Below, piece after piece: positions 36,733 to 47,916 of a stretch of 64,000 bases of DNA; positions within the stretch are counted from its first letter, which is position 1; each line of letters begins with the position of its first letter. Source of the stretch: a bacterium (GTDB lineage Bacteria > Hydrothermota > UBA3073 > JACQXS01 > JAGMCI01); contig JASEGA010000001.1 in NCBI GenBank assembly GCA_030018315.1, forward strand, positions 76,673 through 140,672. Reading direction: 5' to 3'. The notes below the pieces were generated by a model. That model ran no database searches. It was not told the DNA's origin and saw nothing but the letters and a program-made list of their open reading frames with translations. Both the position numbers and the translations under genes were made by a program.

Positions 36733-37386
36733 ATGAATGAAGAAATAAATATTAGCGATTACTTAAGACCAATAAAGAATAAATGGTGGGTAACTCTATC
36801 TATATTTTTAGTTGCTGAACTCACAAGTATGCTCATTACTGTGAGACAACATAAAACTTACGAGTCTACAACTACTATATTTCCACCTAAAGTAGTAGAA
36901 ATAGATACTTTAAGTACAGCTATTCTTAAGATTAAGCGAAAGGTATCAATAGGACTAAGTCCCACACAATCTATTATAGCTATATTTAAATCAAAAAGAA
37001 TGGCAAGCGATATAGTGGAAAAATTTGGGCTCCTGAGTTTATATAATACTCAATTCAAATCAGATGCAGTTAAAAAATTAGAGAACTCAACAAATATTTC
37101 TGTATCAAAGGAAGGGGCCGTATCTGTCACAGTTAGTTCAATAGACCCTAAATTGGCTGCAGAGATTGCAAACTTTTATGTAGAAAACCTTGATAAGATA
37201 AACAATGAGTTAAAGCTATTTTCTGTAAAACCTGTGGTAACCGTCATTGACCCTGCTATACCTGCGGACAGACCATCCGGTCCAAAGGTTAAATTGTGTA
37301 TGTTTATAACTGGGCTACTCTCTATTCTTGTAGGTATTTTAGTTTCGTTTCCTATCAATTCCATTGAGAGAAGAAAAGAATCATAA
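36733..37386 (+). CDS. Wzz-like polysaccharide chain-length regulator
   Basis: A 217-residue protein with the polysaccharide co-polymerase plan: a short cytoplasmic start, a first membrane helix at about 18-38 (WVTLSIFLVAELTSMLITV), a periplasmic domain with YESTTTIFPPK and later VSVTVSSIDPKLAAEIANFYV, then a Pro-rich VIDPAIPADRPSGPK before a second helix at about 188-208. No kinase domain is attached. It probably sets chain length for the surface glycan whose genes lie at 48-64 kb, although it is not in that cluster. Its last 23 bp overlap an upstream-extended frame of murB. Confidence 0.8.
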   Translation: MNEEINISDYLRPIKNKWWVTLSIFLVAELTSMLITVRQHKTYESTTTIFPPKVVEIDTLSTAILKIKRKVSIGLSPTQSIIAIFKSKRMASDIVEKFGLLSLYNTQFKSDAVKKLENSTNISVSKEGAVSVTVSSIDPKLAAEIANFYVENLDKINNELKLFSVKPVVTVIDPAIPADRPSGPKVKLCMFITGLLSILVGILVSFPINSIERRKES

Positions 37387-37387
37387 T

Positions 37388-38299
37388 ATGGGACTTGAAT
37401 ATATTAAGTCATGTGAAATTAAAATTAATGAGAAGTTAAGCTCGCATACAAGCTTCAGAATAGGTGGAACTTGTGATACTTTCATGGTCCCAAAGACTAC
37501 TACAGGCTTAAAATTAGCAATTAGATATGTTGCTCAAAATAAGCTACCTCTATTAGTAATTGGAAATGGGACTAACATTTTGGTGCCAGATGATGGAATC
37601 ACGGGTGTCGTTATTAAAATTGGTGAACCATATTTTTGTAAATTTCATCTCCCGACACAGTGTAGGGATACGCCATGGCGTGTCCTTACAATAAGAGTAG
37701 GGGTAGGAATTTCACTTCAACAATTATTAAAAATTACTGCTAACCACTCACTATCGGGATTAGAATTTACAGCTGGTATCCCCGGGACATTGGGAGGCGC
37801 AATTGTAATGAATGCAGGTGCACAGAGGAAAACGATTAGTGAAGTTATAGAAAGGGTAAAAGTAGTAGATAAGTCAGGCAATGTTTACTGGGTTAAAAAT
37901 TGTGAATCTAATTTTGGCTATCGGGATAGCAGGTTCAGAAATAGCAGTGAAATTATAATAGAAGCTGAACTAAAATTAAAGAAAGGAGACACTGTTAAAA
38001 TTAAGAACGAAATCCAAGAAATACTTAAAAAAAGAGAAGCTTCATTACCACTCAAATTACCGAGTGCTGGTTGTGTATTTAAAAATCCTAATAATGCTAT
38101 TGCTGGCAAGCTTATTGAACTTGCAGGCTGTAAAGGGTTAAGAAGTGGTGATGCACAAGTATCAAGTAAACATGCAAACTTTATTGTAAATATTGGAAAT
38201 GCTACATATAAAGATGTTAAAACACTTATATCAGATGTCCAACACAAAGTATACGAGAAATTTAGAATTTATCTTGAACCCGAACTTGTAATATTATAA
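37388..38299 (+). CDS. murB: UDP-N-acetylenolpyruvoylglucosamine reductase
   Basis: MurB reduces UDP-GlcNAc-enolpyruvate to UDP-MurNAc. FAD-binding motifs VIGNGTNILVPD and GIPGTLGGAIVMNAGA are present, with FGYRDSRFRN and the proton-donor region PSAGCVFKNP. The start is set at the ATG at 37388 just past the upstream stop, giving 303 residues; a GTG/ATG further upstream (37364) overlaps the previous gene. The next gene starts immediately after the stop, with no gap. Confidence 0.95.
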   Translation: MGLEYIKSCEIKINEKLSSHTSFRIGGTCDTFMVPKTTTGLKLAIRYVAQNKLPLLVIGNGTNILVPDDGITGVVIKIGEPYFCKFHLPTQCRDTPWRVLTIRVGVGISLQQLLKITANHSLSGLEFTAGIPGTLGGAIVMNAGAQRKTISEVIERVKVVDKSGNVYWVKNCESNFGYRDSRFRNSSEIIIEAELKLKKGDTVKIKNEIQEILKKREASLPLKLPSAGCVFKNPNNAIAGKLIELAGCKGLRSGDAQVSSKHANFIVNIGNATYKDVKTLISDVQHKVYEKFRIYLEPELVIL

Positions 38300-39316
38300 A
38301 TGAAATGGAACTCACACCTGAGGATTGCAAAATGGGTAGGCTCAGCTTTGAATCTCAGTCAACCAAATCTACTAAAATTAGCTGACGGCTCCGTAGCACC
38401 TGATAATAGGTGGGACCACCGATACCACCATAATCATAGATATTTGGATAGTAAAATTAGAAATCATATAATAAAGGCAAGAGGCTTATTCTTAAAAGGA
38501 GATGACAAATGCTTTTTTGAGACTGGTGTCGCCCTCCATTACATACAAGATAGATGCCTACCTACAGAGTCATACATTAGGCACTTAAATATTGAAGAAG
38601 AATTAGCTAAAATATCGGAAACTAAACCAGGAAGTAGGAGATCTCTATCAACTAAAGGATATCTACAATTAGAAACAGTAAGGAAGAGAATTATGGAATC
38701 AAATATAGGGGAGATGGAAAAAGAGTTGTTACTTAGCTTACAATCAGTGAAAGAAAAGAGCTTTACTATATCTTTAGCTTTAATCAATTTACCTGCTAAT
38801 ATTGAGTCAAAGCTACTTCTTAATATCATTACACGTATCTCACTGGGGGTAGCCACTTCTATCCTGTCACATGACCCACCATTTCAACTTTTAGTTGAGA
38901 AATTTAAAGTGGTAACTAAAACTTTAACATCAGCTACTACTAAATTTAAAGTTCATATGGGCATAGAGATAATTCTACCATTATTATTTCTTTACTATGG
39001 CAAAATTGGAATATTGGCATACATATTAATTACAGTAGTAAATTTGTTATCACTTCTTCCATGTATTGCAATTCTGAAAAAAGCGATTCCAAAAAGAACA
39101 ATAAAAGCATATATAAGGTTACAAGAAAACTCAAAGCTACTTTTTACATTTTTTGCCCTTGTAACATTAGTTACAATTGTAGTATCTATCATTTTTTTAC
39201 ATAAGGTACTATTAGCTGGATTAATTCTTGCTCTTATTTCATTATTGCATCTAATTTATCCCAAAATATCAATAGATGATGAAGTAACTGATGAGATAGA
39301 CTGGTATAACTGGTAA
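38300..39316 (+). CDS. Membrane protein with PLC/P1-nuclease-like N-terminal domain
   Basis: A 338-residue protein. The N-terminal ~210 residues are helical and contain clustered potential zinc ligands: SHLRIAKWV (His6), DHRYHHNHRYLD (His40-His46) and GVALHYIQDRCLP (His80, Asp84). This resembles the zinc-dependent phospholipase C / S1-P1 nuclease fold. The C-terminal part has four membrane helices (around 222-260 and 288-325) ending in a charged tail. It is tightly linked to murB and amrS-like genes. Enzymatic activity is an inference from the histidine pattern. Confidence 0.6.
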   Translation: MKWNSHLRIAKWVGSALNLSQPNLLKLADGSVAPDNRWDHRYHHNHRYLDSKIRNHIIKARGLFLKGDDKCFFETGVALHYIQDRCLPTESYIRHLNIEEELAKISETKPGSRRSLSTKGYLQLETVRKRIMESNIGEMEKELLLSLQSVKEKSFTISLALINLPANIESKLLLNIITRISLGVATSILSHDPPFQLLVEKFKVVTKTLTSATTKFKVHMGIEIILPLLFLYYGKIGILAYILITVVNLLSLLPCIAILKKAIPKRTIKAYIRLQENSKLLFTFFALVTLVTIVVSIIFLHKVLLAGLILALISLLHLIYPKISIDDEVTDEIDWYNW

Positions 39317-39322
39317 ATTGGG

Positions 39323-40456
39323 ATGTGTAAAGTATGTGTTACTTTAATTTGTCTTATAACAGCATTAACTTTATATAGTGGTATCAGAACCAGTTTATCA
39401 CAAGATGCCGTTACCATAGCGACACCAAAAACAAAAAAGTCTGTTGTGAGGGAAGCTATGTTTTATAAAAAGTTAGATGATAATAAGGTATGGTGTCAAC
39501 TCTGTTTCAGGAAATGTATAATTAATGATGGAAAAAGAGGCTTTTGTAGAAATAGAGAGAATCGGGCTGGCACTTTATATAATGTAGTCTATGCTAAACC
39601 ATCAGCAGTCCATATAGACCCAATCGAAAAGGAGCCTCAACTCCATATGCTACCGGGAAGTAATATACTCTGCTTTGGGACAGCAGGCTGTAACTTTAGG
39701 TGCAGATTTTGCCATAACTGGCACCTATCACAGCGGTCTGTAGAAGAGATGGAATATTGTTATGATATGCCACCAGAAAAGGCAGTAGAGAGTGCTATTA
39801 AATATAATACTCCTACTATCTCATTCACATATAACGAGCCTACTTCATTCTATGAATATGTATACGATGTAGCTAAGCTTGCTAAGAAGAAAGGGCTAAA
39901 GATATTATGGCACTCAAATGGAGCAATTAATCCGGAGCCTTTAAAAACACTGTTAAAATATACTGATGCAGTTACTATTGATTTAAAGGGGTTTACTAAT
40001 AAGTTTTACAGTGAAGCATCATCTGCAGAATTAGAACCTGTACTTCAAACTCTTAAGATTATCAAAGAACAAGGAGTTTGGCTTGAGATTGTAAATCTGC
40101 TCATCCCTACTTTAAATGATAACCCAAAAGATATCAAGCAAATGTGTAAATGGATAAAGGAGAATTTGGGTCCTAATGTCCCACTACATTTTTCACGCTT
40201 TTCGCCCGCATATAAATTGACAAACCTACCCCCTACACCAATTGAGACATTAGAACAAGCTTACAAGATTGCTAAAGAAATAGGCCTTAATTATGTAACA
40301 ATAGGCAATGTGCCCGGTCATAAGTATAATTCCACATTCTGCCCAATGTGTCAAAAGAGACTGATTCACCGTATACATTTCCAGGTGTTGAGTAATCATA
40401 TAAAAGATGGAAAGTGTAGCTTTTGTGGTCATTATATTCCGGGAATTTGGGAATAA
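39323..40456 (+). CDS. amrS: AmrS-type radical SAM protein with N-terminal membrane anchor
   Basis: A 377-residue member of the radical SAM family in the AmmeMemoRadiSam system. The cluster motif is Cys123, 127, 130 (CNFRCRFCHNW). The N-terminal cysteines (CQLCFRKC, GFCRNR) and the HIDPIEKEPQLHMLPG and FTYNEPTSFYEY segments are diagnostic. A hydrophobic N-terminus (VCVTLICLITALTLY) suggests a membrane anchor or signal peptide, which is odd for an oxygen-sensitive radical enzyme. The C-terminus has two CxxC pairs (CPMCQKR and CSFCGHY) that could bind zinc. The MEMO and AMMECR1 partners are not in the window. It is followed 9 bp later by an aminopropyltransferase-like membrane protein. Confidence 0.85.
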   Translation: MCKVCVTLICLITALTLYSGIRTSLSQDAVTIATPKTKKSVVREAMFYKKLDDNKVWCQLCFRKCIINDGKRGFCRNRENRAGTLYNVVYAKPSAVHIDPIEKEPQLHMLPGSNILCFGTAGCNFRCRFCHNWHLSQRSVEEMEYCYDMPPEKAVESAIKYNTPTISFTYNEPTSFYEYVYDVAKLAKKKGLKILWHSNGAINPEPLKTLLKYTDAVTIDLKGFTNKFYSEASSAELEPVLQTLKIIKEQGVWLEIVNLLIPTLNDNPKDIKQMCKWIKENLGPNVPLHFSRFSPAYKLTNLPPTPIETLEQAYKIAKEIGLNYVTIGNVPGHKYNSTFCPMCQKRLIHRIHFQVLSNHIKDGKCSFCGHYIPGIWE

Positions 40457-40465
40457 CCTGATATT

Positions 40466-42778
40466 ATGAATAAACGCATCATTTTTGCTATATTAGTAAC
40501 AGGATTTAGTGGTATGGTTGCACAGTTGTTGCTAATCAGAGAATTGTTGATAACATTTTATGGAAACGAGCTCTCCATAGGGATTATGCTTGCTAACTGG
40601 CTTATATTAGAGGCAGCTGGCTGTGTTTCCATTAGAAGGAAAATTGAACATATGGAGAGAAGAGTTGAGTTATTCATTGGACTTCAGCTTATCTTTTCAT
40701 TATGTCTACCATTAGTAATTTACTTAGCCCGTACATTAAAGGAAATTATCGGAGTCACTTCAGGTGAATCTTTAGGTCTATTACCTATTTCTTTTTATTC
40801 TTTTCTTATCCTCCTTCCTATAGCTTTTACTCATGGTGCATTATTTACTTTCAACTGTAAGATATATTCACTGGTATCAAAAGGAGGTGACTCTCAATCT
40901 GTAAATGGACAGTCAATTGGTAAGGTATATGTTTATGAGACAGTTGGTACAATTATAGGTGGAATTATTTTTACTTATCTTCTTATTCCTTATTTTCACT
41001 CTTTCAATATAGTATTTGGAATAACTTTATTAAATTTTGCAATATGTATACTCTTGCTTGGACACTTCTGGCAAAGGAGGGCAGCACTCTCTAACAAAAT
41101 CTTGGGTAGTATCTCATTAATACTTTTTGTCCTGTATACTTACACTATTATTGGCACATTGGCGGATAATATCCATATGCTTTCAGCTAGACATCAATGG
41201 AAACAGCAAAATGTAGTTTATTACCAGAACTCAATCTACGGTAATGTGGCAGTGACAGAAAGAAGTAAACAATACACCTTTTTCTCAAACGGAATACCAA
41301 TCGTCGTAGCCCCTATCCCAGATATAGCATTTGTTGAAGAATTTGTTCACCTACCAATGCTTTCACATAAAAATCCAAAAGAGATACTTATTATCAGTGG
41401 TGGAGCAGGTGGTGTGATAAATGAAATCCTAAAACATCAAGTAGAAAGAATTGACTATGTTGAACTTGACCCTTTATTATTGAAAGTAATCAAACAGTTT
41501 ACTACACCATTGACTGAAAAGGAACTCACCAGTTATAGAGTAAATATTGAATATTTAGATGGTAGATTATTTATTAAAAGGACATCAAATAAATACGATA
41601 TTGTTATGGTCGGACTATTTGAGCCTTCAGACTTACAAGTAAATCGCCTTTTTACGAGAGAGTTCTTCTATTTAGTCAAAAATAAATTGAAAGAAGATGG
41701 TATATTAGTTGTCGGATTGCCGGGCTCTTTAACTTACTTAAATAAGGAATTGAAGAATCTCAATGCTTGTATTCTTAATACACTTGAAGCAGTTTATCCT
41801 TATGTTCAGGTAATTCCCGGTGATTTTAATTTATTTTTGGCTTCAACCTCTAATAAAATTACTTTAATCAACCATAATTTACTCAGCCACAGGCTGAATG
41901 GAAGAGAACTCAAAGTAAGCCTTATAACACCGCCACATATTGAGTATAGACTACACAAAAGATGGCTTAATTGGTTTTTGACTTCAATTGAAAACAGTAC
42001 AAAGAAGATAAATGATGACTTCTCTCCAATAGGGGTATTCTATAGTCTCTCCTATTGGAATGCTATGTTTTCACCTAATATAAGGGAGATTTTCAATAGG
42101 ATTGAGCGTGTAAATTTATTGCTATTTGCTATTTTGCTTTCTATATTTACTATACCATTTTTAATTGTTTGTCTTAAAATTAAAAGATTTGCTTATATAG
42201 GTGTTCCATTATGTATCGGTACCACAGGTTTTGCTGGTATGATATTTGATTTAGCGCTCGTCTTCACATTTCAGGTACTCTATGGATATATCTTCCGACA
42301 GATAGGACTTTTAGTGACTACGTTTATGGTTGGAATAGCAGTTGGTGGGATAACTATGACTTCATTTTTGGGACGAATCAAGAAAGACTTTATATCTTTT
42401 ACTGAGTTAGAAGTGGCTATAATTCTTTTCTCTATATTACTTCCATTGATATTTCTTAAATTTAGTCCACACTTGGAACAGTCAGCAGTCCGGCACATAA
42501 ATTTATGTGCCGGACTATTTCTTGTCATGGCCTTCTTTTCCGGTATCCTCATTGGTGCAGAATTCCCATTAGCTAACAAGATATATTTAAAAACTTCTAA
42601 TAACTTAAGTGGAACTGCTGGTCTACTTTATGGGGCAGACCTATTTGGGGGCTGGATAGGTGGTATTGTTGGTAGCGTAGTGCTATTGCCTGTTTTGGGG
42701 TTATTGAAGACTTGTATAGTAGTAATTATGCTTAAAGTAAGTAGTCTCATTATACTTATCACTTCAACTAAGAAGTAG
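40466..42778 (+). CDS. Polytopic membrane protein with spermidine-synthase-like domain
   Basis: A 770-residue protein with about six N-terminal membrane helices, a central soluble domain at about residues 250-480, and about seven C-terminal helices. The central domain has a Rossmann methyltransferase/aminopropyltransferase core: QNSIYGNVAVTE, ILIISGGAGGVINEIL, IDYVELDPLLL and later DIVMVGLFEPSD. In true spermidine synthases a catalytic Asp sits in the last of these segments; here VGLFEPSD is divergent, so enzymatic activity is uncertain. A 30-bp perfect palindrome lies in the coding region at 42487-42516. It is the last gene of the murB-PLC-amrS-like operon. Confidence 0.8.
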   Translation: MNKRIIFAILVTGFSGMVAQLLLIRELLITFYGNELSIGIMLANWLILEAAGCVSIRRKIEHMERRVELFIGLQLIFSLCLPLVIYLARTLKEIIGVTSGESLGLLPISFYSFLILLPIAFTHGALFTFNCKIYSLVSKGGDSQSVNGQSIGKVYVYETVGTIIGGIIFTYLLIPYFHSFNIVFGITLLNFAICILLLGHFWQRRAALSNKILGSISLILFVLYTYTIIGTLADNIHMLSARHQWKQQNVVYYQNSIYGNVAVTERSKQYTFFSNGIPIVVAPIPDIAFVEEFVHLPMLSHKNPKEILIISGGAGGVINEILKHQVERIDYVELDPLLLKVIKQFTTPLTEKELTSYRVNIEYLDGRLFIKRTSNKYDIVMVGLFEPSDLQVNRLFTREFFYLVKNKLKEDGILVVGLPGSLTYLNKELKNLNACILNTLEAVYPYVQVIPGDFNLFLASTSNKITLINHNLLSHRLNGRELKVSLITPPHIEYRLHKRWLNWFLTSIENSTKKINDDFSPIGVFYSLSYWNAMFSPNIREIFNRIERVNLLLFAILLSIFTIPFLIVCLKIKRFAYIGVPLCIGTTGFAGMIFDLALVFTFQVLYGYIFRQIGLLVTTFMVGIAVGGITMTSFLGRIKKDFISFTELEVAIILFSILLPLIFLKFSPHLEQSAVRHINLCAGLFLVMAFFSGILIGAEFPLANKIYLKTSNNLSGTAGLLYGADLFGGWIGGIVGSVVLLPVLGLLKTCIVVIMLKVSSLIILITSTKK
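42487..42516. repeat. Perfect 30-bp palindrome inside a coding region
   Basis: AGTCCGGCACATAAA at 42487-42501 is followed directly by its exact reverse complement at 42502-42516. It is read through as AVRHINLCAGLF in the C-terminal membrane domain. The fully self-complementary arms with no loop are unlike the surrounding coding sequence and suggest an inserted palindromic element or a binding site. Confidence 0.75.
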
Positions 42779-43734: not shown

Positions 43735-46497
43735 TCATAATTTAGAATCCAGCATTTTTCCTATATAGGTTTGGACATAGCTCTTAAAACTACTTAAGTG
43801 CTCTTCAGGTATTTGGGGAAATTGTTTATACAAACACTCTTTTAATTCATTAAGCCATTCTTTTTTACCACTACACTCATACATAAACCAATAACCTTTC
43901 CACATAATGGGTAAAGATTCCGTCTTGCTACCAATCTCAATCATTCTTTTAGCATAGTTCTCAATTTTAGCAATCTCCTCCTTTTTATTGCTTTTTGCAA
44001 GTATCTTACACAACCGCAAGCAAGCAGTTGCTTCACTCATTTGCTCACCAAGTTCAATTGCTTTGTTCAATACTTCCTCAGCAAACCCGATTGCATTTTT
44101 AAAGTCGCCGTCTAATTCATAAAGTTTAGACTCAGCAAGTCTTAAATCAAGCATAGGTTTTATACTCTTTAGCTCAGCTACAGTTTTTTCTACCTTTTGT
44201 TTCAAAGCTTTTGCACTACCCAAATCACTTTTTCCTATATGGGCTTGAATCATCATTATAAGTGTGGATGCAATTCCACCCTTTGCACCAATTTGCTCAA
44301 ATAGTTTTAGCGATTGCTGAAAGTAACTCAATGCCTCTTTGTAGTTACCTAAATCCTGATACATGCCACCAATCTCCATAATTGAATCTGCTTCGCCTCT
44401 CTTACCACCCGTTTCTTGGTATATTTTCAATGATTGCTGAAAGTAAATAAGTGCTTTCTTATAGTTACCTAACAAAGAATATACAGTACCAATGTTATTG
44501 AAAGCCAGTGCTTCACCTGCTCTATTACCTATCTGCTGACTTATCATCAGTGATTGCTGATAACAGGTCAATGCCTCTTTATAATTGCTCAGATTATCAT
44601 ATATATTACCAATGTTATTGAAAGCCATTGCCTCATTTACTCTATCACCTATCTGCTGGCTTATCTTCAGTGATTGCTGATAATAGGTGAATGCTCCTTT
44701 GTAGTCACTTAAATTAAAATATATAATCCCAATATTATTGAGACAGTTCGCCTCACCTTGTCTATCACCTATCTCTGGTCTTATTTTTAGTGATTGTTGA
44801 AAGTAATTTAGTGCTTCATTATACTCACCCAGATTGTAATATACAGCACCAATGTTATTGAGAGAATAGGCCTCATTCTGCCTATCACATATTTCACGGG
44901 ATATTTTCAATGATTGTTGAAAGTAATTCAAAGCCTCAACAGAGTTTCCCAAATGAAAGTATGCAATACCAATCCGATTGAGTGACTCTGCTTTACCTTT
45001 CTCACATTTCAGCTCTATGTATATATCTAATGCACTTCTGGCTAATTTTAGCGATTCTTCATATTTGCTAAGTGCAGTGAAAATAATAGCTTTGTGTGTA
45101 AGACAGTCTGCCTCTGTTTTCCTATTGTTCGTCTTATTTGCTATAAGAAGCGCTTCATCTATGTCTACAAGTGCAGGTTGAGTTTGCCCTATTAGAGTAT
45201 AGACTTTTGAGCGTTCTTTTAAAACGCTAATTTGTAATTCAGTGTCCACGATTAGCTTACCTTCTATACCCACCACAGAGAGGATTCTGGTATAGTATTC
45301 TATCTCTTGTTGATTAGCGTATATAGCTCTTGCCTGTTTAGCTGCCTTTTCTGTATAGTCAAGTGCCTTTTGCCAGTCTTCACCTTTAAAATAATGCCAT
45401 GAAAGTAAACCGTAGTAATCATCAAGTCTGTCCTTGAACAACACCTCTGTACATTCGCCAACCCTACGATGTAGCTCAATTCGCCTCTTTTTTAAAAGGC
45501 TGTTGTAAGCTACCTCTTGAGTCAGTATATGTTTGAACAGATATTCCAATTCTACTAATATTTGCTTTAAAATAAATTGCCTATCTTCCAATAGGTTGAG
45601 TGATTTATCAAGTTCTTCTGAGATATCACCTCGAGTTGCATCAGATGCATACTTTAGAACCCGATATAAGAAGCTATGTCCTATAACAGATGCGGTCTGT
45701 AAAACTTGTTTAGTATTGTCATCAAGTTTATCTATTCTTGAAGCAATCACACTATGGACAGTATCCGGGACATCAATTTCTTTTATATCAATAGTCAACT
45801 GCCATAATCCGTTTTCTTCTCTTAATACCTTATAGTCAATAAGAGAACGGATTAGTTCTTCTACATAAAATGGGTTACCTTCAGATTTATCAAGAATTAG
45901 TTTCTTTAAACTATCAGGTACACTCGGTATGTCAAGAAGATTATTTATTAACCCGTTATTATCATCTTCAGGCAGTGGCGTAAGGTTTATTTCAACATAG
46001 TTATCCGGTATTCTTTTCTTAGCACACTCCATCAAGTGGACACAGCTACCTTCTTTTTTTGACCTAAAAAGAGAAATAATAAGAAACGGTGCAGATATAA
46101 CGCCATTTAACAGAAATTCAAGTAAATCAAGTGATGCTGTATCTATCCAGTGTAGGTCTTCAAGTACAAGAATCAATGGACATTTCTTACTTATTGTAAT
46201 GAATAAATCACGAAGTGACACAAATACCTCAAGTTTTAATGTTTCAGAATTAAGATATTTTACTTTATCTATATATTTATTATCAAGTTTAAGTGAAAGA
46301 AAAGTGCAAAGATATGGGATTAGCTCATTTGAGCGTTCACCAAACAGGGATGCGAGACAACTGGTTAGTTTATCTTTTATCTGAGCTTCATTATCTGATT
46401 CTGTTATCTCAAGATAAGACTTTACAATCTCAAGAAATGGCCAGTATGGGATTGATTTACCATAAGAGAGACAGTGACCTTCAAGCCAACAAATCAT
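43735..46497 (-). CDS. STAND-type ATPase with TPR repeats, N-terminally truncated
   Basis: A 920-residue frame. It begins at ICWLEGHCLSYGKSIPYWPF, the segment that normally follows Walker A in adenylate-cyclase-linked ATPases, so the P-loop itself is missing. Walker B is CPLILVLEDLHWIDTASLDL, and GNPFYVEELIRSLIDY marks the winged-helix junction. From about residue 370 a series of TPR units runs to the end, many nearly identical (NIGxVYxNLGxYxEALxYFQQSLKI). Its ATG overlaps the TGA of the preceding fragment as ATGA. Its last residues (MLDSKL) are encoded by a dispersed AT-rich repeat. Without a P-loop it cannot be a normal ATPase; it is likely the 3' part of a fused or deleted gene. Confidence 0.75.
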   Translation of the reverse strand: MICWLEGHCLSYGKSIPYWPFLEIVKSYLEITESDNEAQIKDKLTSCLASLFGERSNELIPYLCTFLSLKLDNKYIDKVKYLNSETLKLEVFVSLRDLFITISKKCPLILVLEDLHWIDTASLDLLEFLLNGVISAPFLIISLFRSKKEGSCVHLMECAKKRIPDNYVEINLTPLPEDDNNGLINNLLDIPSVPDSLKKLILDKSEGNPFYVEELIRSLIDYKVLREENGLWQLTIDIKEIDVPDTVHSVIASRIDKLDDNTKQVLQTASVIGHSFLYRVLKYASDATRGDISEELDKSLNLLEDRQFILKQILVELEYLFKHILTQEVAYNSLLKKRRIELHRRVGECTEVLFKDRLDDYYGLLSWHYFKGEDWQKALDYTEKAAKQARAIYANQQEIEYYTRILSVVGIEGKLIVDTELQISVLKERSKVYTLIGQTQPALVDIDEALLIANKTNNRKTEADCLTHKAIIFTALSKYEESLKLARSALDIYIELKCEKGKAESLNRIGIAYFHLGNSVEALNYFQQSLKISREICDRQNEAYSLNNIGAVYYNLGEYNEALNYFQQSLKIRPEIGDRQGEANCLNNIGIIYFNLSDYKGAFTYYQQSLKISQQIGDRVNEAMAFNNIGNIYDNLSNYKEALTCYQQSLMISQQIGNRAGEALAFNNIGTVYSLLGNYKKALIYFQQSLKIYQETGGKRGEADSIMEIGGMYQDLGNYKEALSYFQQSLKLFEQIGAKGGIASTLIMMIQAHIGKSDLGSAKALKQKVEKTVAELKSIKPMLDLRLAESKLYELDGDFKNAIGFAEEVLNKAIELGEQMSEATACLRLCKILAKSNKKEEIAKIENYAKRMIEIGSKTESLPIMWKGYWFMYECSGKKEWLNELKECLYKQFPQIPEEHLSSFKSYVQTYIGKMLDSKL

Positions 46498-46790
46498 ATT
46501 TCCTTGATTTTTATTGTCATTGCGAGCGATAGCGAAGCAATCTCTTGAATCATCTTAGAGAGCTCAGTTATAGAAAGTAGCTGTAATTGTATCTCTTTTG
46601 ATAGTTTGATGATATCGGATAGCTCTGTCCTAGTAGCTTCTCTGATAACCCCAAATATTAAGATACGAAATATGTGAATATTTTGTACCAAATAGTGAAG
46701 TAGAGAAAGACTTGCCTCATCTACTAAATGCAAGTTGTCTAAAAATAGGATAACAGGAGACTCCTCTGAGATAGTTGTAAGTAAACCCAT
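46494..46790 (-). pseudogene. Middle fragment of the disrupted GGDEF-ATPase gene
   Basis: This piece carries the Walker B and sensor part of the first ATPase: PVILFLDNLHLVDEASLSLL, then RILIFGVIREATRTEL and SITELSKMIQEI. It continues, one frame shifted, from the fragment at 46813-47916. In the same frame upstream of its ATG the sequence reads SKAYLFEGV, confirming the shift. Its last residues (ASLSLAMTIKIKEI) are translated from the dispersed repeat at 46515-46544, beyond which the second ATPase frame starts. Confidence 0.7.
46515..46544. repeat. Dispersed repeat TGTCATTGCGAG...GAAGCAATCTC at a gene-fusion junction
   Basis: The plus strand reads TGTCATTGCGAG, a core CGATAG, then CGAAGCAATCTC. 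The same ends occur at 54305-54342 with a different core. It lies exactly where the first ATPase reading ends and the second begins. Confidence 0.7.
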
Positions 46791-46812
46791 AACTCCTTCA
46801 AAAAGATAAGCT

Positions 46813-47916
46813 TTAGAAGCATTCGGGGACTGTCCCCGAATGGCTCAGTAAAAATGGAGGTACACGGCCGAGTGCCTTTTGAGCATTTTTTGAAAGTCTC
46901 CCAGACTTGTAAAGGTTTGTAAAAATAATTTTAAACGGTTCATATGGAGTAGATGGTAAAGCGTAACAGGAAGTGGCAAGAATTTGAGCGCCCTTAAATT
47001 TAACTATATCTAAAAATTCGTTAGCTAATCTTGTTTTGCCTACCCCTGCAGCTCCACTTATGAAAATTACCTTTCCATCACCCTGCATTACTTGTTTGAA
47101 CACATCTTCTAATTCTTTTAACTCTCTTTCTCTCCCTATCAACTTTGGAGAATGAATAGATAGATGCACTTTCTCGGGAATACCTATCCCTTTACGAGCT
47201 AATTCAAGTAAGAGTTGAGACGTATTTGCATCCTCCGGATATGCAGCTATACCAGTATTTACGGTAAGTCTGATACCATGCTTAAAAGTATAATCTTTAA
47301 TTATTCCTTTGAGTCTTTCCCCTACACTCAACGCCTCTTCTTTTTCTATTCCGGTGAGCAATAATGCAAACTCATCTCCATTGTATCTGAACAGCATATC
47401 TTCTGGACGAGTATTGGTTTTTAAAATCTTAGCTAACTGGATAAGGATTTCATCTCCTGCAGAAGAGCCAAACGAAATGTTTACATCGTTGAATTTGTTG
47501 ATATCTAAGAAAATTAGCGGCATAGCCAATTTCTTATATTCAGCCTCGCGAATTTTCACTTCTAAATAAGAATTAAGATACTTATAGTCGTGAAGTCCTG
47601 TTAGGGAATCGGTAGTTTCTTCTGGCTTTTCTATTTCAACTTCATGTAGAAGTGGTGGCGTAACTTTCTCCTCCATAATGATACGCTCTGTTGCCTCAAT
47701 TCCCTTTAGTGTTGCAATAGCATGTTCAAGATATTGCTCAGCTAAATGAGGAGAAATCTGTTCAATAGTAGCAGTAACTTTGGGTGGCTCTTTTTTGGCT
47801 GGACCTAATTCTTTTGCTCTCTTAATACCCTGCTCAAAGTATAATTCAGTGAGCTCATTTTTCACTGCTTGATTATCAGGAAATTTTTGTGCTATATATT
47901 CATAAGCCTCAATCAC
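46813..47916 (-). CDS. GGDEF domain plus AAA P-loop fragment of a disrupted signalling gene
   Basis: A 367-residue piece. Residues about 1-110 are helical with a TPR-like start (AYEYIAQKFPDNQ). Residues about 110-240 form a diguanylate-cyclase-like domain (TDSLTGLHDYKYLN, PLIFLDINKFNDVNISFGSS, FRYNGDEFALLLTG); the signature is NGDEF rather than GGDEF, so activity is unsure. Then comes LIGRERELKELEDVF and the Walker A GAAGVGKTRLANEF. The frame ends at HSGTVPECF, encoded by an inserted palindrome. It is in the same register as the upstream TPR piece, separated by one TAG at 47934-47932. TPR-GGDEF-ATPase was probably one protein. Confidence 0.7.
   Translation of the reverse strand: MIEAYEYIAQKFPDNQAVKNELTELYFEQGIKRAKELGPAKKEPPKVTATIEQISPHLAEQYLEHAIATLKGIEATERIIMEEKVTPPLLHEVEIEKPEETTDSLTGLHDYKYLNSYLEVKIREAEYKKLAMPLIFLDINKFNDVNISFGSSAGDEILIQLAKILKTNTRPEDMLFRYNGDEFALLLTGIEKEEALSVGERLKGIIKDYTFKHGIRLTVNTGIAAYPEDANTSQLLLELARKGIGIPEKVHLSIHSPKLIGRERELKELEDVFKQVMQGDGKVIFISGAAGVGKTRLANEFLDIVKFKGAQILATSCYALPSTPYEPFKIIFTNLYKSGRLSKNAQKALGRVPPFLLSHSGTVPECF
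46820..46842. repeat. Perfect 23-bp palindrome causing a frameshift
   Basis: CATTCGGGGAC (46820-46830), a central T, and GTCCCCGAATG (46832-46842) form a perfect inverted repeat. It lies where the frame of the GGDEF-ATPase gene shifts; before it the protein reads VPPFLLS, after it SKAYLFEGV in another frame. Confidence 0.7.

Follow-up and report, generated by a model that had tools for sequence, protein, structure and literature searches.

The 64,000-nucleotide window considered here comes from a bacterium assigned to the Hydrothermota (positions 76673-140672 of contig C1, JASEGA010000001.1, in an assembly of 1.95 Mb and 74 contigs that is 97% complete). It contains four successive open reading frames (ORFs) on the forward strand, namely murB, a gene for a histidine-rich PLC/P1-like membrane protein, a gene for AmrS, the radical S-adenosylmethionine (SAM) enzyme of the AmmeMemoRadiSam set, and a gene for a large membrane protein with a spermidine-synthase-like domain, hereafter the Spd-like protein (Table 1). 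The tight spacing of these genes, pointed out in a preliminary description of the locus, was borne out, with gaps of 0, 6 and 9 bp between successive genes. MurB and AmrS both pass the curated cut-offs of their families (326.5 versus 259 bits for the equivalog model NF010480 and 355.8 versus 220 bits for TIGR04337), and the PF01564 Spermine_synth domain is recovered with 112 bits in the middle of the 770-residue membrane protein. The PLC/P1-like gene is present as described, but its identity as a Zn-PLC is weak: the match to PF00882, at 25.7 bits, does not reach the gathering cut-off of 26.8 bits and is restricted to the N-terminal residues 6-86.

Table 1. Features of the locus (positions within the window).
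Feature	Positions	Strand	Basis or remark
Wzz-like gene	36733-37386		ends 1 bp ahead of murB
murB	37388-38299	+	NF010480
PLC/P1-like gene	38300-39316	+	PF00882, below cut-off
AmrS of the exported type, AmmeMemoRadiSam radical SAM enzyme, 377 aa	39323-40456	+	TIGR04337; PflA-like (3c8f) by sequence
AmrS N-terminal leader, Sec-type signal or anchor, residues 1-43	39323-39451	+	Tat signals at the homologous position in many relatives; host genome without TatC
Radical SAM motif CX3CX2C (C123/C127/C130)	39689-39712	+	sequence; kept in 204/205 AmrS and COG1313-like proteins examined
Spd-like membrane protein, 770 aa: 7 TM, spermidine-synthase-like domain, 7 TM	40466-42778	+	PF01564; AlphaFold2 model; alignments A1 and A2
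N-terminal membrane repeat TM1-7; invariant R25, E26, G33, N34, E35	40469-41152	+	repeat of the C-terminal half (hhalign)
Spermidine-synthase-like domain, predicted extracytoplasmic; E333, D335, D365 invariant; A314 and G383 in place of catalytic Asp	41210-42100	+	alignment, model, charge pattern
C-terminal membrane repeat TM8-14	42116-42769	+	hhalign, AlphaFold2 model
Three successive ORFs (GGDEF/AAA start, short AAA piece, AAA/TPR piece) that look like pieces of a single large signalling protein and may be frameshifted	43735-47916	-

Examination of gene neighborhoods across 147 WOR-3 genomes revealed that in 11 of them, belonging to six families, an amrS of the window type immediately precedes the Spd-like gene in the same orientation (the source genome G000, and G013, G015, G066, G077, G085, G092, G099, G100, G101 and G126). 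When all neighbors of the pair were clustered nothing beyond the pair itself was conserved; murB and the PLC-like gene are incidental. The proposal that the four genes constitute one envelope pathway, to which their common strand and minimal gaps lend some appeal, is accordingly hardly tenable, for in other genomes neither murB nor the PLC-like gene is found near the pair, and homologs of the latter occur in just 5 of the 147 and never adjoin amrS outside the window genome; we rejected it. This histidine-rich protein is confined to the order of the window, with its other copies in G136:C2, G132:C90, G134:C17 and G135:C83/C55.

The co-occurrence of amrS with the spermidine-synthase-like membrane gene, which the preliminary description had put forward as a check, did extend to other genomes in many phyla. 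When 11.3 million contigs were scanned with a profile, 357 matches were confirmed, of which the best-scoring 80 were analyzed, so that the frequencies hold for this part of the family only; nearly all the genomes are metagenome-assembled, and the taxonomic titles of some are inconsistent. These 80 loci span some 18 named phyla, and in 52 of them a gene for AmrS or for a second radical-SAM family, which we take to be COG1313-like, lies no more than 700 bp from the Spd-like gene. The 52 comprise 24 loci with AmrS upstream on the same strand, 22 with the COG1313-like gene downstream on the same strand, and 6 with AmrS in other arrangements; among the rest, AmrS is further off in 5, the contig end limits the view in 14, and 9 have neither radical-SAM gene. 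Twelve named phyla have a Spd-like gene adjoining a leader-bearing AmrS and nine have one adjoining a COG1313-like gene. The COG1313-like proteins are members of PF04055 by library scan and score far under the TIGR04337 cut-off (31.7 versus 220 bits). In five Bacteroidales loci (L223, L227, L235, L242 and L260) a single Spd-like gene is preceded by two or three amrS genes in tandem, which have diverged and are mostly of the Tat (twin-arginine translocation) type, and the cultured bacterium Desulfobulbus alkaliphilus DSM 24258 (L270) also has a member of the module. These neighborhoods make it well supported, at the level of gene order, that amrS and the Spd-like gene form a conserved module. 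Additionally, in three loci of the WOR-3 family f33 (L197, L204 and L206) a DUF362 (PF04015) gene directly adjoins the Spd-like gene.

The window AmrS starts with a short hydrophobic leader that has no clear cleavage site and had been described as a membrane anchor. Leaders were called in 110 AmrS and about 50 COG1313-like proteins by a simple hydrophobicity and twin-arginine rule rather than by a trained predictor, with start codons as predicted. A leader is present in 89 of the 93 AmrS proteins that are at least 47% identical to the window copy (40 Tat-like and 49 Sec or transmembrane (TM)), and those below 47% identity are leaderless in 13 of 17 cases. The leader is thus conserved, but its reading as an anchor alone has to be revised in favor of a probable export signal, which in many relatives is of the Tat type. 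The second radical-SAM family is an internal control in this regard: all 24 copies adjoining a Spd-like gene carry a Tat or Sec leader, and 25 of 27 copies elsewhere in WOR-3 genomes are leaderless, so that the same type of enzyme bears a leader where it stands beside the Spd-like gene. The window AmrS has the CX3CX2C motif and core sequence similarity in common with PflA-like radical SAM proteins, that is, the PFL activases and the COG1313-like family; PflA and most COG1313-like proteins are leaderless, unlike the copies that adjoin the Spd-like gene. The type of leader also follows the available machinery, TatC being present in 38 of 39 genomes with a Tat-type AmrS and missing from 35 of 42 with a Sec-type AmrS (Fisher test, 1e-14, uncorrected); TatC was not found in the window genome. 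About ten changes of leader type are seen on the AmrS tree. Likewise, the Spd-like protein is present in 72 of 81 genomes with an exported AmrS as against 4 of 14 without one (p = 6e-6, uncorrected), and fusions of MEMO and AMMECR1 obey the same rule, the exported form occurring with exported AmrS and leaderless MEMO where AmrS is leaderless.

These observations bear on the alternative that the leaders are mere anchors or mispredicted starts, with AmrS remaining in the cytoplasm and the pair forming a cytoplasmic membrane-associated pathway. The nature of the window leader and the dependence on predicted starts would fit this, as would the rarity of Sec export among Fe-S enzymes. Yet orthologs adjoining the same membrane gene bear consensus twin-arginine signals (SRRDFLKK followed by a hydrophobic stretch) or Sec signals that look cleavable, MEMO-AMMECR1 proteins have leaders too, leader type tracks TatC, and the partner domain is itself predicted to lie outside. 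We accordingly regard a cytoplasmic AmrS as decidedly improbable, and export of AmrS as well supported by the distribution of leaders. One cluster, in G010:C120 (L091:8137-13137), departs from the leader rule, perhaps through a mis-called start: its AmrS is leaderless and is accompanied by a MEMO-AMMECR1 lipoprotein, a Spd-like gene and RseC.

The MEMO and AMMECR1 partners, which had been thought absent, are indeed missing from the operon, but their absence from the genome had to be rejected. Two MEMO-AMMECR1 fusions with both domains above cut-off are encoded on contigs C34 and C5, neither of them adjoining the window amrS. The C34 protein starts with the lipoprotein-type leader 'YLLICEILLLGCSS' and is a predicted lipoprotein, and the C5 protein is leaderless. 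There are also four amrS genes above cut-off, of which the window copy and that on C47 have leaders and those on C28 and C10 have none. As leader-bearing and leaderless copies of both components coexist in one genome, they form two parallel sets, and we infer that an extracytoplasmic AmmeMemoRadiSam set runs beside a cytosolic one in this organism. The system thus resembles the known AmmeMemoRadiSam system (TIGR04335, TIGR04336 and TIGR04337, for AMMECR1, MEMO and AmrS) in having AmrS above cut-off together with both partner domains, and differs from it in the export leaders on AmrS and on one of the fusions, the lack of linkage between the genes, the additional membrane-bound Spd-like partner, and the coexisting leaderless set. 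At the C34 locus (L043:2131-4848) the lipoprotein gene is divergent to one for a SagB/nitroreductase-like protein, perhaps with a short signal.

To what extent the partner protein accords with such a location can be judged from its predicted structure. An AlphaFold2 model built with 75 sequences (pLDDT 92.2, pTM 0.90) consists of seven helices, the spermidine-synthase-like domain and seven further helices, and the two membrane halves are a duplication (hhalign probability 96.4%, E 1e-9, 183 columns). Within the membrane helices R25, E26, N34, E35 and E158 are invariant polar residues. The mean number of lysines and arginines per loop alternates strictly, with 1.8, 4.2, 2.3, 2.9, 3.3, 3.1, 2.7 and 1.2 in the inside loops and 0-1.0 in the outside loops; this positive-inside pattern places both termini inside and the spermidine-synthase-like domain outside. 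We therefore dropped an earlier model with a cytoplasmic SAM-binding domain, and the domain is predicted to face away from the cytoplasm. A fold search with the whole model recovers spermidine synthases (best PDB match 1uir, E 1.3e-12; TM-scores to the targets about 0.65-0.77), and the top Foldseek matches of the N-terminal half alone are largely transporters of the major facilitator superfamily (MFS), at weak E-values. The membrane part is predicted to be a duplicated MFS-like domain with the spermidine-synthase-like domain inserted between its halves. The protein passes the cut-off of NF037959, the fused MFS/spermidine synthase family (66.6 versus 40 bits), with which it shares the membrane and synthase domains; it differs in that the latter stands between two seven-helix repeats, and the pairing with exported radical-SAM enzymes lies outside the definition of that family. 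It does not meet the cut-off of NF002956 (PRK03612; 188 versus 472 bits).

Comparison with authentic spermidine synthases (PF01564, SpeE) indicates what the domain has kept and lost. It shares with them the fold, the Gly-rich loop and the acidic residues that bind ribose and adenine, and the nucleoside-pocket residues in the VELD and LDGR motifs (E333, D335 and D365) are invariant in 75/75 sequences of alignment A2. In contrast, none of the 75 has the Asp of GGGDG or the first Asp of DxxDP, in place of which mostly Ala and Gly are found (A314 and G383 here), and in the more diverse alignment A1 an Asp at the second catalytic position is kept in 2 of 30. The soluble SpeE of the same genome has retained every one of these residues, with both GGGDGG and DSTDP intact, and the PF17284 tetramerisation domain was not reported for the Spd-like protein in the family scan. 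Since both catalytic aspartates are lost while the nucleoside pocket remains, we rejected an ordinary aminopropyltransferase; its residues suggest instead a module that binds SAM or a nucleoside derived from it. The description of a membrane-embedded, spermidine-synthase-like protein therefore stands as regards fold and membrane part, with the amendment that the domain has lost its catalytic residues and is predicted to lie outside.

The residue pattern leaves two further roles to be weighed. The Spd-like domain might be an envelope enzyme that carries out, with SAM or decarboxylated SAM, a non-canonical transfer (methyl, aminocarboxypropyl or modified aminopropyl) onto a substrate that it shares with the exported radical-SAM enzyme, as suggested in the preliminary description. 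A complete fold, strictly conserved pocket residues and the stable pairing with radical-SAM enzymes are what one would expect of it, but the loss of both aminopropyl-transfer residues is not, the association of one membrane protein with two radical-SAM families makes a single shared substrate less natural, and SAM would still have to get outside; on balance we consider such an enzyme unlikely, though a serious contender. Alternatively, the protein could take no part in transport or catalysis and serve as a membrane scaffold or receptor, either to dock the exported radical-SAM enzymes or to sense SAM or products of its breakdown. This would accommodate the lost catalytic residues, the adjacency to radical-SAM genes and the large domain predicted outside as a possible docking surface, but a duplicated set of seven helices with the invariant polar residues listed above exceeds the needs of a scaffold, and we view this role as improbable.

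Additional components are seen in the vicinity of some Spd-like genes. Certain loci encode an FMN-binding/Fer4_5 protein (NosR/NapH-like), RnfG-like, RseC, DsbD_2 or an exported SagB-like flavoprotein (the last in L241, L252, L254, L272 and L283), and these redox proteins may constitute an electron route. In two Spirochaetales (L241:6754-14023 and L254:6808-13916) a compact cluster combines an exported AmrS, the Spd-like protein, an exported SagB-like protein, a second exported AmrS, the FMN-binding/Fer4_5 membrane protein (NosR/NapH-like) and DsbD_2, and is the fullest candidate pathway that we recovered. Protein-L-isoaspartate methyltransferase (PCMT) with a Sec or lipoprotein signal, widespread among WOR-3 genomes, is encoded at two of the Spd-like loci (L259:6979-7680 and L252:7182-8003) and in the window genome (G000:C2:62269-62928; L339), and is predicted to be a further SAM-dependent enzyme outside the cytoplasm.

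The module, its conservation, the leaders and the residue losses are evident from comparison of the sequences, and the explanation that we favor for them, at a little under an even chance, is a module for radical-SAM chemistry at the outer face of the cytoplasmic membrane, in which it falls to the membrane protein to provide or handle SAM or its products. An exported radical-SAM enzyme would need SAM, reduced Fe-S clusters and electrons outside. AmrS would be translocated by Tat in many relatives and through a Sec-type leader or anchor in the window genome, and would work with the exported MEMO-AMMECR1 lipoprotein encoded elsewhere in the genome, a partnership that we infer from the shared occurrence of leaders. 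The 14-helix protein would move SAM across the membrane and present it outside to the exported radical-SAM enzymes; alternatively, working in the other direction, it would take back products such as 5'-deoxyadenosine or methionine. As two exported radical-SAM families share a membrane protein with an outward SAM-type pocket and a transporter-like duplication, SAM supply or product clearance is the simplest reading, and we hold the supply role to be nearly as probable as not. The known SAM transporters of intracellular bacteria such as Rickettsia and Chlamydia would be alike in moving SAM across a membrane, if this proposal holds, but they work as importers and are not known to carry a SAM-fold domain.

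Several observations weigh against an outward-facing module supplied with SAM in this way. The MFS matches of the N-terminal half, though of high probability (0.9-0.99), have weak E-values of at least 0.07, and SAM transport is deduced indirectly. Nine genomes have an exported AmrS and no detected Spd-like protein (including G084, 97% complete, and G050, 94% complete), and four have the Spd-like protein without a leader-bearing AmrS. Once phylogeny is allowed for, just 4 independent pairs are left to test Tat signals against TatC, some 3 of them in favor and 1 opposed, and the test has no power. The Sec export of an Fe-S enzyme implied for the window genome is unusual, and family f24 has an exported PCMT without a Spd-like protein, which also weakens the use of the former as a strict marker for the latter.

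The components all belong to known families; what appears new from their sequences is the exported form of the radical-SAM enzymes, their pairing with the Spd-like protein, and the inactivated outward-facing domain. No description of these three features, and no use of the term 'periplasmic radical SAM', was found in the open-access library searched, a scope outside which preprints and most subscription papers fall; the name AmmeMemoRadiSam occurs there in just 5 papers, a single time in each. As far as we know, characterized radical-SAM enzymes act where SAM and low-potential electrons exist, that is, inside cells, and SAM-powered radical chemistry outside the cytoplasm has to our knowledge not been shown before. 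It is conceivable, although we would lean slightly against it, that many phyla possess radical-SAM enzymes outside the cytoplasm together with a dedicated MFS-like SAM exporter that uses an inactivated spermidine-synthase domain as its SAM-binding module; such exported radical-SAM enzymology, and a SAM exporter tied to it, would each be the first of its kind. AmmeMemoRadiSam is a widely conserved set, with human homologs of MEMO and AMMECR1, for which we know of no established function, and it would hereby gain a compartment and a new partner. Radical-SAM enzymes with Tat or Sec leaders, found in multiple phyla beside an outward SAM-fold protein, raise the question of the route by which SAM, Fe-S clusters and electrons reach the outside, and the pair may offer a two-gene system in which to answer it.

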